Shown here in pieces: positions 9,050 to 12,583 of a stretch of DNA of 64,000 nt. Positions within the stretch are counted from its first letter, which is position 1; the number at the start of each line of letters is the position of its first letter. Below the pieces are notes generated by a model. The model was given only the letters and a program-made list of their open reading frames with translations. It ran no database searches and was not told the origin of the DNA. The DNA comes from Vibrio cyclitrophicus (lineage in GTDB: Bacteria > Pseudomonadota > Gammaproteobacteria > Enterobacterales > Vibrionaceae): contig NZ_AP025481.1 of the NCBI RefSeq assembly GCF_024347435.1, positions 1,612,001-1,676,000 on the forward strand. Reading direction: 5' to 3'. Both the position numbers and the translations under genes were made by a program.

Positions 9050-9556
9050 TTGGATATTAGATTGCTTAAATTAGGTACCCGATTAGTCTTAATGTTGTTT
9101 TTACTGAGCTTTGGCTTAGTGAATTCTAACGGCTATTCGTTCCCTTCTAAGCCATTCCAAATCCACTCCGCTCAAGAGCAGCCTTCGCAGAATAATCTTT
9201 GTAAACAAGCTGCTGCGGATAATCCGTCGAGCTACATGGAATGTGATCAGGTTCAGTTTGACACTGCGTCTTTAGGTGATAGTTCCAATTATCACGACAC
9301 TGAATCGAGTCTCCAAGCGGTAACCTTTAGACGTATGCTCAGCAACGAGCAAGAAAGCGTGGCCGACCTTGAGCCTGCTTATCATCTATTGATCGACTTC
9401 TCTCCCCCATCACTACTGGCTTCTCTGCTCTTCAACACGCCGATGTTGGATACTAAGCAGCATTGGACCAGCATTGTGAGTTCTCCGTCCTCCCGGCTTT
9501 CGGGGTGGAAAGAGGGCAACATCCAATACTCGCATTTCCGAGAACTTCTCAGCTAA
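9050..9556 (+). CDS. vemP: VemP-like secretion-monitoring arrest peptide
   Basis: 168 residues from a TTG start with a weak GAGA site before it. The N-terminus is an export signal (Arg4, Lys7, Arg11, then a hydrophobic core at 12-25); the middle is polar and unremarkable. The C-terminus carries RLSGWKEGNIQY at residues 149-160, close to the conserved RxSGWKExNxxY arrest segment of Vibrio alginolyticus VemP as I recall it. VemP stalls its own ribosome when Sec export is slow or external Na+ is low, which opens the mRNA and allows translation of secD2F2. Here secD2 and secF2 follow directly, which supports the call strongly. Starts at TTG 9062 or ATG 9092 are possible but would shorten the basic N-region. 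Confidence 0.82.
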   Translation: MDIRLLKLGTRLVLMLFLLSFGLVNSNGYSFPSKPFQIHSAQEQPSQNNLCKQAAADNPSSYMECDQVQFDTASLGDSSNYHDTESSLQAVTFRRMLSNEQESVADLEPAYHLLIDFSPPSLLASLLFNTPMLDTKQHWTSIVSSPSSRLSGWKEGNIQYSHFRELLS

Positions 9557-9713
9557 TCGTTTGACCCTAAATTGGTCGTCTCGATGGTCACTTGTGCCCG
9601 TTGAGCTCGCCAGTTAACCAAGACAAACATAGCGACATCAGCTTTAGCATCATTACCGTTCAATCAGCTTGTTCTGGTTTCGGCTATCGCTCGTGTTCGC
9701 AAAACATCAGTTA

Positions 9714-9814
9714 TACCAATCGTAGTAAATGACTGGTCACCCAAGCTGGTTAAAATGCTCGAACACTGCTTTTTTTCGGCTCTATTTTTGAGCTCGTATT
9801 TACGGTGATTGGTA
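9714..9814 (+). promoter_or_regulatory. Long hairpin before the secD2 ribosome-binding site
   Basis: Arms 9714-9730 and 9798-9814 pair over 17 positions with two G-U pairs and one mismatch (TACCAATC/GATTGGTA at the base, GTAAAT/ATTTAC at the top). A smaller GGCTC/GAGCT hairpin lies inside. The base of the stem ends three bases before the AAGAAGAGA Shine-Dalgarno region of secD2, so it could control access of the 30S subunit. The sharp terminal palindrome also resembles small MITE-like intergenic repeats, so an inserted element is the alternative. Confidence 0.55.
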
Positions 9815-9833
9815 CAAAGAAGAGATCTTGACT

Positions 9834-11627
9834 GTGAAAAAACGCATTCCAAGAAAACAAATTAACCACTACTCAAAGTGGAAATACGTGGTGCTTATCG
9901 CCACCATCATTATCATGATTCTAAGTGCCTTACCTTCTTGGTTTGGTGAGGACGCCTCGGTTCAAATCAGTAACCGTTCTGAGCAGACGATCGACGCCAC
10001 TCAAGTGACGCAATACCTTGCTAGCGAAGGCATTCAAGCGACATCAGCCTTTCAAAAAGACAAACGCTTAGTTGTGATCTTAGAAGATGCAGAGCAGCAA
10101 GCGAAAGCCAAAGAAGTGCTTAATGAGCGCTTCCTCGACAGCGCAACCGTTGCTCTAGCGATGGAGCCAGCTGCACCTAAATGGCTAACTGATATGGGTT
10201 TTGCGCCGATTCAACTAGGTCTTGATTTACGCGGTGGCGTGCAGTTCTTGCTAGAAGTGGATATGGCACCGGTTTATCACGCGCAAGCTCAAGCGGTGGT
10301 CGACGAGATCACTAGCGAAGTGCGTTATGCCCGTGGTGAAGTGGTGAACAACCAAGTTAAGTTTAATTTCCGCACTGATGCTGATTTTGAACAAGCTCAA
10401 AAGCTGATTCGTGAAGAGTTCCCACAATGGCAACGTGATCGTTCAGATAAATCGCTAACGTTAACCCAATCTGAAGAAGAGCAAAGAACGCTACGTAACC
10501 TAACGGTTCAACAAAACCTGCAAATCATGCGCAGCCGTATTGAAGAGTTAGGCATCACAGAAGCATCAATTCAACGCCAAGGTGAAAGCCGTATTCGTAT
10601 TGAACTGCCGGGCGTACAAGACCCTGCAGCAGCGAAAGATGTGATTGGTGCAACCGCATCACTTGCTTTCTATTCTGTGTACGACAACCCAACGCGCAGC
10701 ACTCAAACGCTGAAGGACACAGACGGCAACCGCGTGGTAGTCGACCGCAAGGCTGTGTTGAGTGGCGAACACATTATCGATGCTCGTAGTGGCATTGGTG
10801 AGATGGGCAGCGCAGAAGTAAACATCACACTGGATTCTTCTGGCGGCAAAAAAATGTCTGAGTTTTCTCGCCATAATATTGGTAAGCCAATGGCGACTGT
10901 TTACAGCGAATACAGCCGCGACAGAGCCGGCAACAGCGAGAAAACCAGTGAAGTGATCAGCGTTGCAAACATCCAATCTCAGTTGGGTAGCCGTTTCCGT
11001 ATCACAGGTGCTGGCACGTTAGGTGAAGCACAAGAGTTGGCTCTACTCCTTCGTGCGGGTTCATTAACCGCGCCCGTTACCATCATTGAAGAGCGTACTA
11101 TTGGCCCATCTCTGGGTGCCGAAAACGTAACCAACGGCTTTGCTGCTTTGGCGCTTGGCTTGGGTCTTACTCTGACGTTTATGGCGCTATGGTATCGCCG
11201 CTTAGGTTGGGTCGCGAACTGTGCATTGGTGGTGAACATGACCACATTGTTTGGCTTGATTGCCTTGCTACCAGGTGCGGTATTAACCTTGCCAGGCATT
11301 GCGGGCTTGGTACTGACCGTCGGTATGGCGGTGGATACCAACGTGCTTATCTTCGAGCGTATTCGAGACAAGATGAAAGAAGGACGTAGTTTTGCTAGTT
11401 CTATCGATCGTGGTTTCGATAGCGCGTTCTCGTCAATTTTCGATGCTAACGTCACCACCATGATCGTTGCTGTGGCTCTATACACCATTGGTAATGGACC
11501 GATTCAGGGCTTCGCTTTGACTCTGGGCTTAGGTCTTCTAACCAGTATGTTTACGGGCATTTTTGCTTCACGAGCGATCATCAATTTGGTTTGGGGGCGT
11601 GACCAACGCCACGACGTAAGGATTTAA
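9834..11627 (+). CDS. secD: Protein translocase subunit SecD (second, VemP-linked paralog)
   Basis: About 597 residues. It has an N-terminal transmembrane segment, the SecD P1-head region, the diagnostic GLDLRGGVQFLLEVDM motif, RIRIELPGV, and the C-terminal five-helix RND-like domain with AVDTNVLIFERIRDKM. With SecF it uses the proton or sodium motive force to pull translocating proteins into the periplasm after SecYEG. In vibrios the secDF2 copy is induced by VemP arrest and is reported to replace the Na+-driven SecDF1 when Na+ is low. GTG 9834 (MKKRIPRK) is preferred over TTG 9828 because the AAGAAGAGA site is then suitably spaced. It lies two bases before secF. Confidence 0.93.
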   Translation: MKKRIPRKQINHYSKWKYVVLIATIIIMILSALPSWFGEDASVQISNRSEQTIDATQVTQYLASEGIQATSAFQKDKRLVVILEDAEQQAKAKEVLNERFLDSATVALAMEPAAPKWLTDMGFAPIQLGLDLRGGVQFLLEVDMAPVYHAQAQAVVDEITSEVRYARGEVVNNQVKFNFRTDADFEQAQKLIREEFPQWQRDRSDKSLTLTQSEEEQRTLRNLTVQQNLQIMRSRIEELGITEASIQRQGESRIRIELPGVQDPAAAKDVIGATASLAFYSVYDNPTRSTQTLKDTDGNRVVVDRKAVLSGEHIIDARSGIGEMGSAEVNITLDSSGGKKMSEFSRHNIGKPMATVYSEYSRDRAGNSEKTSEVISVANIQSQLGSRFRITGAGTLGEAQELALLLRAGSLTAPVTIIEERTIGPSLGAENVTNGFAALALGLGLTLTFMALWYRRLGWVANCALVVNMTTLFGLIALLPGAVLTLPGIAGLVLTVGMAVDTNVLIFERIRDKMKEGRSFASSIDRGFDSAFSSIFDANVTTMIVAVALYTIGNGPIQGFALTLGLGLLTSMFTGIFASRAIINLVWGRDQRHDVRI

Positions 11628-11629
11628 GC

Positions 11630-12583
11630 ATGAGTATTTCAAATATGACTAATTCAAACAGCTATGTTTCAGACCGCTATATTACAGACAGCAACATGAC
11701 TCGCCTCCGTAAGGTGATGTCTGTGATTTCTATTATGCTGTTCATGAGCTCTGTAATGCTGGTGGCAGTGAAAGGTTTTAACTGGGGCTTGGACTTTACT
11801 GGCGGTGTGGTTGCCGAGGTTCAGCTCTCTGACCAAGTGACGAAAGACGCGTTAAAAACCAAGCTTGATACGGCTTTCCAACAAGACGTTCAAGTGGTTG
11901 GCATGGCAGAGCAAGATCGCTGGACGATTCGTTACAGCCAGCTGACAGATGCTCCACAGCCAAACTTAGTGGATGCTTTGTCATCGGTGAGCGACCAAGT
12001 AAAAGTGCTCAACAGCAGCGTGGTTGGCCCTCAAGTGGGTCAAGACATGGTTGAGCAAGGCGGCTTGGCGGTGTTGGTGTGCTTCCTAATGATCATGCTG
12101 TACCTGAGTGTACGATTTGAATGGCGTTTGGCTCTGGGTGCGCTTGCCGCGATTATCTATGATGTCACGCTTATCTTAGGCTTGTTCGCCTTCACTCAAT
12201 TCGAGTTCAACCTGACCGTATTGGCGGCTGTGTTAGCGATTTTGGGTTACTCACTCAATGACTCAATCATCATCGCCGACCGTGTCCGTGAAATGCTGCG
12301 CGGTAATCCAAACGGTGATACTGACAACCTACTTAACGAATCGGTGAAAGCGACCTTCTCACGCACCATGGTGACTTCAGGAACAACTCTAATCACCGTA
12401 TCAGCGCTTTGGCTACTTGGTGGTGCTGCGCTGCAAGGTTTTGCTATTGCGTTGGTTGTCGGCATTGTTAGCGGTACGTGGTCTTCCGTTTCCGTCGGCA
12501 TCACTCTGCCTAAGTTGCTTGGCCTGCAGCCTTGTCACTACAAAGTAAAAGTGCCAGTAGAAGTTGAGGGAGAGTACCCCTAG
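11630..12583 (+). CDS. secF: Protein translocase subunit SecF (second paralog)
   Basis: 317 residues with six transmembrane segments and the SecF signatures GLDFTGGVVAEV near the N-terminus and YSLNDSIIIADRVREMLR in the fourth and fifth helices. It completes the SecDF complex with the gene two bases upstream, with AAGG as ribosome-binding site. An N-terminal polar extension of about 25 residues precedes the first helix. The pair ends at a strong terminator, so vemP-secD-secF form one transcription unit. Confidence 0.95.
   Translation: MSISNMTNSNSYVSDRYITDSNMTRLRKVMSVISIMLFMSSVMLVAVKGFNWGLDFTGGVVAEVQLSDQVTKDALKTKLDTAFQQDVQVVGMAEQDRWTIRYSQLTDAPQPNLVDALSSVSDQVKVLNSSVVGPQVGQDMVEQGGLAVLVCFLMIMLYLSVRFEWRLALGALAAIIYDVTLILGLFAFTQFEFNLTVLAAVLAILGYSLNDSIIIADRVREMLRGNPNGDTDNLLNESVKATFSRTMVTSGTTLITVSALWLLGGAALQGFAIALVVGIVSGTWSSVSVGITLPKLLGLQPCHYKVKVPVEVEGEYP

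Follow-up and report, generated by a model that had tools for sequence, protein, structure and literature searches.

A predicted VemP-family export monitor with a replaced active-site segment upstream of secD2F2 in Vibrio cyclitrophicus

A 64,000-nucleotide stretch of Vibrio cyclitrophicus DNA (assembly GCF_024347435.1, contig NZ_AP025481.1, positions 1,612,001 to 1,676,000 of the forward strand; hereafter the window) carries, directly 5' of a second secDF pair (secD2F2), a short open reading frame (ORF) whose product retains the tunnel-anchoring half of the VemP arrest motif and has another segment in place of the half that adjoins the active site of the ribosome. This ORF is best read as an export monitor of the VemP family, predicted to stall its own ribosome, to open in this way an mRNA stem over the secD2 Shine-Dalgarno (SD) sequence so that SecD2F2 is made, and to be released by export; from the sequence comparisons given below, the probability of this reading is put at about 0.87. 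The family is already in print, since a VemP-like cluster has been described whose 339 members carry an RxxxWKxxNxxY-like motif close to the C-terminus (Fujiwara et al., 2024; PMC10987492), and the window gene is a variant in which the active-site segment is replaced. Throughout, residues are numbered as in V. alginolyticus VemP, and adding 6 gives the position in the window protein (R139 = R145, Y150 = Y156, 156 = L162, Arg85 = Arg91); coordinates are collected in Table 1.

An earlier sequence-only reading of this DNA had proposed such a peptide, and the elements that it named, the ORF, the C-terminal RLSGWKEGNIQY-SHFRELLS followed by the stop codon and the adjoining downstream secD2F2, were all found. 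The start that it gave, at 9050, is not the one favoured here. The TTG at 9062 was present in 28 of the 28 scorable entries among 30 splendidus-type entries, with a stop codon directly 5' of it in five (the scoring left out L089, which is broken, and L099, in which the searched motif differs), and this TTG is probably the start, which gives a protein of 164 residues. Several relatives are annotated in the database from an ATG equivalent to 9092 (154 residues), a start with which K3 and R7 of the signal peptide would be lost. Hydropathy of the 164-residue protein reached its maximum (2.8) in the 12-residue windows beginning at residues 8-9, and on this measure the N-terminus qualifies as the Sec signal that VemP substrates carry. 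The ORF was matched at E<=1e-3 by 44 of 85 candidate proteins and is thus no chance frame, its homologues including those of V. coralliirubri, V. crassostreae, V. cyclitrophicus and V. lentus, and by identity the window belongs to the splendidus group. No family was assigned to it by Pfam or NCBIfam, and a search of the whole 64-kb window with Rfam gave no match at gathering scores. A GWKE-type DNA pattern, allowing up to two mismatches, occurred once in the genome, and its reversed control did not occur. The genome comprises 5.28 Mb in three contigs; the window lies on contig C2 (1.73 Mb), which is probably chromosome 2, and a separate secD/secF pair is found on contig C1.

The motif region of the window protein reads SRLSGWKEGNIQYSHFREL. 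It contains the RxxxWKxxNxxY-like motif that marks VemP-like proteins (PMC10987492), at 9494-9529, and R139, G142, W143, K144, E145, N147 and Y150 are identical to those of VemP, for which PDB chain 5nwy_s aligned to a V. harveyi protein, ending HRISGWKETNAMYVALNSQFSA, served as reference sequence. Set against the published V. alginolyticus motif, HRIXGWKETNAMYVXLNXX (quoted in PMC7897499), the likeness is partial, which weighs against the reading proposed here: only seven of the 15 named positions are identical, so that the full V. alginolyticus motif is absent, and the other eight differ (H138S, I140L, T146G, A148I, M149Q, V151S, L153F and N154R). Six of these eight fall at positions 146-154, the half adjoining the active site, which bears out the earlier remark that the tail departs from the known form.

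When the window protein was searched with phmmer against PDB sequences, VemP included, no match was obtained at E<=1. Comparison of profiles revealed a probability of 92% between 14 canonical and 17 splendidus-type proteins (24 columns), of 99.6% between the splendidus type and 12 intermediate proteins (93 columns) and of 96.1% between the intermediate and canonical groups (22 columns), where the intermediate group is mediterranei/hangzhouensis-like and labelled xHxH, and E-values are for single comparisons. Homology to VemP is thus supported at the profile level, partly by way of the intermediate group, and together with the gene context and the predicted SD-hiding stem it favours the proposal of a VemP-like regulator upstream of secD2F2. 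The statement that the motif closely resembles that of V. alginolyticus VemP was too strong, in view of the 24 columns of the direct comparison, the lack of a PDB match at E<=1 and the sister operon lineage described below.

The motif was located upstream of a SecD2-type gene in 77 of the best 80 of 156 matched loci (one genome per species), among which the closest SecD2 relatives were those of V. lentus and V. splendidus; the three exceptions were a locus with only 170 bases upstream (L016), one with no ORF in 892 bases (L033) and one with H at position 150 (L048). In a second sample, of 150 genomes of the family, SecD was matched at E<=1e-150 in 137. From the matches listed, 140 SecD-type upstream stretches were fetched; this set leaves out G000 (the genome of the window), G094, with only 170 bases upstream, and part of the weakest matches (46-47% identical). 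A VemP-like ORF was present in 128 of the 140, with the strict pattern in 124 and a looser one (WR for WK) in 4. The 12 stretches without the ORF comprised seven SecD paralogues elsewhere (L215-L218, L223-L225), two degenerate copies, ending HRISGW and GWQEANLRY (L190 and L221), and three in which none was found (L171, L177, L213). Two of these last (L171 of G130 and L177 of G122) are SecD2-type genes 62 and 61% identical to that of the window. The gene order and C-terminal motif recur in six genera. This recurrence, and the strong conservation of the extreme C-terminus, which lies beside the stop codon and overlaps the predicted anti-SD arm, make it hardly credible that the ORF is an ordinary small exported protein with a periplasmic function of its own that merely precedes secD2, even if such a protein would equally well have export features in its sequence and no Pfam or NCBIfam name.

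SecD2 trees were constructed with IQ-TREE (quick method, with support from the Shimodaira-Hasegawa-like approximate likelihood ratio test, SH-aLRT), first from 92 rows, without the window SecD2 and nine near-duplicates, and then from 93 rows, with the window SecD2 restored. The 93-row tree grouped all VALN-tailed loci in a clade of 29 rows (support 95) and placed the window in a clade of 62 rows (support 96), with the SecD1 of the same genome and L231 outside both, and the 92-row tree gave the same split. The window SecD2 is therefore not in the clade of V. alginolyticus-type (VALN) loci and, by this phylogeny, the window operon forms part of a sister lineage (lineage B) and does not correspond directly to the V. 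alginolyticus-type operon. The secD2F2 operon has been called specifically conserved among Vibrio (PMC11470409); lineage B, as delimited by the tree, also takes in Shewanella, Parashewanella, Aliivibrio, Photobacterium and Motilimonas. Both lineages are represented, with one operon each, in three genomes (G110, G118 and G143), and two vemP-secD/F copies are recorded for V. hangzhouensis and 10N.286.49.B1 (PMC10987492). Genome G130 combines a VALN-type vemP-secD2 operon with another SecD2 that lacks the ORF and falls in lineage B on the tree (L229).

Conservation along the motif was evaluated in 206 ORFs from two overlapping genome sets, 191 once identical stretches were removed; some of the 191 are one locus taken twice, owing to gene starts that differ by a few bases (such as L021 and L100), and a de-duplicated recount gave 173 distinct proteins (46 VALN and 127 lineage B) and 29 distinct splendidus-type genes. 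Positions 139, 143 and 147 were fixed in the 173 proteins, while among the 127 of lineage B position 144 was K in 123 and R in 4, and position 150 was Y in 114, F in 7 and H in 6; the invariance of positions 139, 143, 144, 147 and 150 is partly by construction, because the search pattern fixes them, and the independent figure is the 128 of 140 given above. At position 154, N was found in 45 of the 46 VALN proteins and was absent from all 127 of lineage B, an absence that is independent only via the SecD2 tree since the VALN label uses positions 153-154. In its place, lineage B has Q (30), H (28), R (27), S (16), G (13), L (8), E (3) and two single others. A restriction of position 154 to N, Q, H or R fitted 70 of the first 78 loci and was given up when more loci brought S, G, L and E at this site. 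The SHFR tail of the window was found in 17 of 17 named loci and in 16 of 16 of a second, overlapping set, both selected for a SecD2 at least 83% identical and for sufficient upstream sequence; because the SHFR group is defined by residues 151-154, invariance there is by definition, and the independent figure is 33 of 33 SecD2-chosen loci. Two more distant database proteins (P0037 and P0038) have SHYR.

In stalled VemP the P-site residue is Gln156, and the structure attributes arrest to a clash of N154 with U2585 and U2506 (PMC5449182). With the anchor half kept and the active-site half replaced, R154 with F153 would have to take over the role of N154 with L153 in the window protein. Residue conservation in the VALN and splendidus groups extends to 154 and then drops, a boundary also seen in the published motif, whose positions 155-156 are fillers (PMC7897499), so that the same register with another active-site contact would be expected. 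Of the earlier suggestion that the arrest point may have diverged, the part concerning the register probably does not hold, whereas the chemistry at the active site probably has changed. It is rather unlikely that the same regulator stalls elsewhere, at P-site 153-155 or on the stop codon, with the active site blocked otherwise, for example in a termination stall. In favour of such a shift, N154 is missing from all 127 distinct lineage-B proteins, some of which end six residues past position 150 (RFIQQA, RFIHSR, VHAHTC), which would bring the stop codon into the A site at P-site 156, and the RFI, TxYx and SxYG groups lose conservation past 153, a residue sooner than VemP. Such a shift is harder to reconcile with the boundary after 154 shared by the VALN and splendidus groups with the published motif, and with an RNA arm whose end coincides with the end of a ribosome stalled at 156. 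No drop in conservation was seen in the Aliivibrio set or the Shewanella RFSQQ set, which consist of close relatives, and the xHxH group varies already at 151 and 153.

Some tails and frames deserve separate mention. In Shewanella and Parashewanella (L036, L041-L046, L063, L064, L067) the VemP-like ORFs end RFSQQAA, RFIQQA or RQIQQA, 6-7 residues past Y150, where a stall in the usual register would put the stop codon or the last sense codon in the A site. In locus L089 (G100:C2), of the splendidus group, vemP is frameshifted in the LLIDFSPP segment, which leaves the arrest motif out of frame; the frame of P0043, which is another record, breaks in the same segment, and relatives have intact copies.

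Codon usage separated two parts of the tail. In the 29 distinct splendidus-type genes, fixed residues were encoded by TCG, TCC, TCA or TCT at codon 151, CAT or CAC at 152 and TTC or TTT at 153, and this synonymous variation under fixed residues indicates that the peptide is what is held. Codons were near-invariant from there on, with CGA at 154 in 28 of 29 genes, CTT at 156 and at 157 in 25 each, AGC in 27 and TAA in 28, and residues 155-158 changed despite the few synonymous changes (E/D, L/S, L/I and S/Y). Genes with Tyr (TAC) in place of Ser158 (AGC) have ATTAGTG or ATTAGTA instead of ATTAGTT on the other side of the predicted stem, which fits pairing of 9539-9558 with 9807-9830. The RNA-like behaviour of codons 154 and 156-159 could also be expected if stalling were lost and the ORF were a relic, or a translated leader that opens the stem by mere passage of the ribosome, with constraint from the RNA alone; L089, frameshifted and yet keeping secD2, and the similarly broken P0043 agree with this. 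That R139, G142, N147 and residues 151-153 are fixed in the 29 genes amid synonymous changes is poorly explained by RNA, and the distance from Arg85 to R139 is held across lineages, so that a loss of stalling is judged improbable.

The 5' arm of the predicted stem spans codon 154 to just 3' of the stop codon. In 14 loci without the insertion described below, 92.3% of the cells of an 18-pair stem were standard pairs, compared to 38.5-57.1% when the arms were slid; the further pair types numbered 8 (as high in 2 of 500 shuffles) and the covariation score was 0.099 (3 of 500). The 20-nucleotide arm was the best partner of the SD region among windows of its own gene in 24 of 30 entries. When partners were swapped between groups, the splendidus group showed a median z of -2.23 and the native partner was the best of 61 in 10 of 30 entries (19 of 189 over all groups), with mean energies in the splendidus clade of -27.3 kcal/mol for native and -18.3 kcal/mol for cross pairs. 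Duplex scores of wide arms against shuffled partners were weak (median z -1.09), with 22 of 191 beating all 40 shuffles.

Several results weigh against such a stem and, with it, against the regulator as proposed. The percentage paired in the 14 loci was reached by 42 of 500 shuffles, and covariation was modest, the two pairs changed on both sides being reached by 152 of 500. In the window gene, 6 of 370 other windows pair as well as the arm, which in five further entries is not the best partner, and the whole-region fold of 9490-9860 is no more stable than its shuffles (z -0.82). With a median z of 0.05 (SxYG) and 0.47 (Aliivibrio), two groups showed no signal in the swap test, so that a stem there, if any, would lie elsewhere. 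Synonymous change is scarce beyond the tail too, codons 144 (AAA) and 149 (CAA) being likewise invariant, and the arms were picked after viewing folds of the same sequences, which biases the figures in their favour. Taken together, the evidence for an SD-hiding stem is moderate, coming from clade-wide counts and being weak in the window itself.

Arg85 is reported to be necessary for stable, PpiD-dependent arrest (PMC7793623), and the window protein has an Arg at the equivalent position, exactly 54 residues before R139. This spacing was shared by 106 of 127 lineage-B and 11 of 46 VALN proteins, and an Arg within positions 83-88 by 124 and 44, respectively. Across 50 VALN entries the distance from this Arg to R139 was 50 to 55 residues; that from the hydrophobic core to the Arg85-equivalent ranged from 52 to 156 residues in 119 entries (rough hydropathy, stop-to-stop frames), which suggests that the distance from Arg to anchor is what is held. 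Position 129 was W in 117 of 127 lineage-B and 7 of 46 VALN proteins.

The spacer between vemP and secD2, of 277 nucleotides in the window, holds, between the arms, a stretch with inverted ends that has 10 matches in the genome counting itself, those elsewhere being partial copies. Its right end, GATTGGT, can pair with GCTAATC at the end of vemP. The spacer exceeds 200 nucleotides in 15 of the 29 distinct genes, the window included, and all 15 have GATTGGTA just 5' of the SD sequence, while the 14 shorter ones lack it; a repeat end thus appears to supply part of the 3' arm in 15 of 29 splendidus-type genes, if the repeat is taken to be the same across long spacers. The mean computed pairing of the arms was -14.8 kcal/mol with long and -11.9 kcal/mol with short spacers (15 + 15 entries). 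To the left of the repeat, the older arm in the window reads ATCAGTT in place of ATTAGTT. The ends of the repeat could also pair with each other, which would give two competing folds. The spacers of L007 and L095 are longer, with 331 and 329 nucleotides. A literature search for a named V. splendidus repeat, judged by titles and the opening of abstracts, returned nothing related.

According to the reading proposed here, the signal peptide would engage the Sec translocon during synthesis while the chain wedges in the ribosome tunnel via R139, W143, K144, N147 and Y150, and the ribosome would halt near the 156-equivalent codon. A stalled ribosome covers about 15 nucleotides 3' of the P-site, which from 9545 extends to 9560, just beyond the end of the 5' arm. 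The halted ribosome would hence keep the stem open and expose the secD2 SD sequence, and SecD2F2 would be made. With working export, pulling by the translocon, tuned by the Arg85-equivalent, would free the stall, the stem would close and secD2F2 expression would stay low; low Na+ is a candidate trigger of the response.

Table 1. Predicted and observed features of the vemP-secD2F2 region (positions in the window; residues in VemP numbering unless stated).
Feature	Position	Strand	Basis
vemP-type gene, TTG start (probable), 164 residues, TAA stop	9062..9556	+	TTG conservation; 44 homologues
Export signal at the N-terminus, MLKLGTRLVLMLFLLSFGLVNSNGYS; K3 and R7 basic, core of hydrophobic residues at about 8-20 (window protein)	9062..9139	+	hydropathy
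Arg85-equivalent codon (Arg91), exactly 54 residues before the arrest Arg	9332..9334	+	alignment; role from PMC7793623
Conserved Trp of lineage B (position 129), 10 residues N-terminal to the arrest Arg	9464..9466	+	117 of 127 lineage-B proteins
Arrest motif, tunnel-anchor half, RLSGWKEGNIQY (R139-Y150)	9494..9529	+	alignment; R139, W143, K144 and Y150 contacts from PMC5449182
SHFR, active-site-facing part of the tail (151-154)	9530..9541	+	codon tables; tail type checked on SecD2-chosen loci
Predicted stem, 5' arm; 9539-9543, 9545-9549 and 9552-9558 paired	9539..9558	+	duplex and pair counts
ELLS and stop (155-158), few synonymous changes, residues vary	9542..9556	+	codon tables
156-equivalent codon (Leu162), predicted P-site of the stall	9545..9547	+	register from VemP alignment
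Stretch with inverted ends between the arms; right end GATTGGT (9807-9813) in the 3' arm	9711..9817	+	partial genome copies
Predicted stem, 3' arm; 9807-9813, 9818-9822 and 9826-9830 paired; holds the SD sequence AAGAAGAG at 9817-9824	9807..9830	+	pairing
secD2, GTG start likely, TTG at 9828 possible	9834..11627	+	NF009545, 978 bits (cut-off 728)
secF2	11630..12583	+	TIGR00966, 268 bits (cut-off 160)

Compared to VemP of V. alginolyticus (PDB 5nwy and related entries), the window system shares a secreted leader 5' of secD2F2, the seven identical residues, the Arg85 distance, a predicted SD-hiding stem and a separate secDF elsewhere in the genome; it differs in having Trp at 129, where VemP has Ser (with Trp at 124), in a direct profile alignment of only 24 columns and in a SecD2 of the sister lineage. 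With the cluster of PMC10987492 it shares the RxxxWKxxNxxY-like motif, and the main-text passages of that paper compared here describe no tail classes, Arg85 spacing or RNA overlap. SecM (secA) and MifM (yidC2) are likewise leader peptides whose export- or insertion-sensitive stall opens an mRNA stem, but their arrest motifs, as quoted in PMC7897499, are dissimilar, and ApdA, ApdP and RAPP/RGPP-type peptides are also encoded 5' of a secDF gene, but the window ORF has no RAPP-like motif. PMC7232310 uses VemP in the arrest-peptide sense beside Shewanella, citing 2015 work only. In the literature collection searched, no paper joined VemP with secD2 and splendidus, or with SecD and Photobacterium.

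VemP is a structural model of arrest through helix formation at the ribosome active site, and N154 is central to it. If peptides with the same anchor and R, Q, H, S, G or L at 154 arrest too, they would form a natural variant series that separates general contacts from the choice of one lineage; the nearly constant distance from Arg85 to the anchor despite varying protein length suggests a ruler between translocon and ribosome. The interest of the window gene thus lies in the replaced active-site segment, the near-fixed distance from Arg to anchor and the double use of the last codons. As a tentative generalization, for which we would give slightly less than even odds, VemP may be modular: a fixed anchor, an equally fixed Arg85 that faces the translocon, with nearly constant spacing between the two, and an exchangeable plug of about four residues at the peptidyl-transferase centre, replaced in many lineages. 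VALN with N154 would be the solution of one operon lineage and SHFR a plug that silences the active site by another contact; the last codons would double as an anti-SD arm, and a repeat would have been recruited to the other arm.

Regarding the neighbouring genes, the GTG start of secD2 is likely from the spacing to the SD sequence and from comparison with relatives. SecD-type genes outside the operon were also recorded. In L215-L218 they are about 50% identical to SecD2, and their 5' neighbour is not VemP-like; we take it, from its appearance, to be a DedA-like membrane protein. In L224 and L225 (G124 and G100), an extra SecD-like gene, 46% identical, follows a frame of 153 codons whose product, judged by eye, resembles an exported protein; the VemP motif is absent from it.

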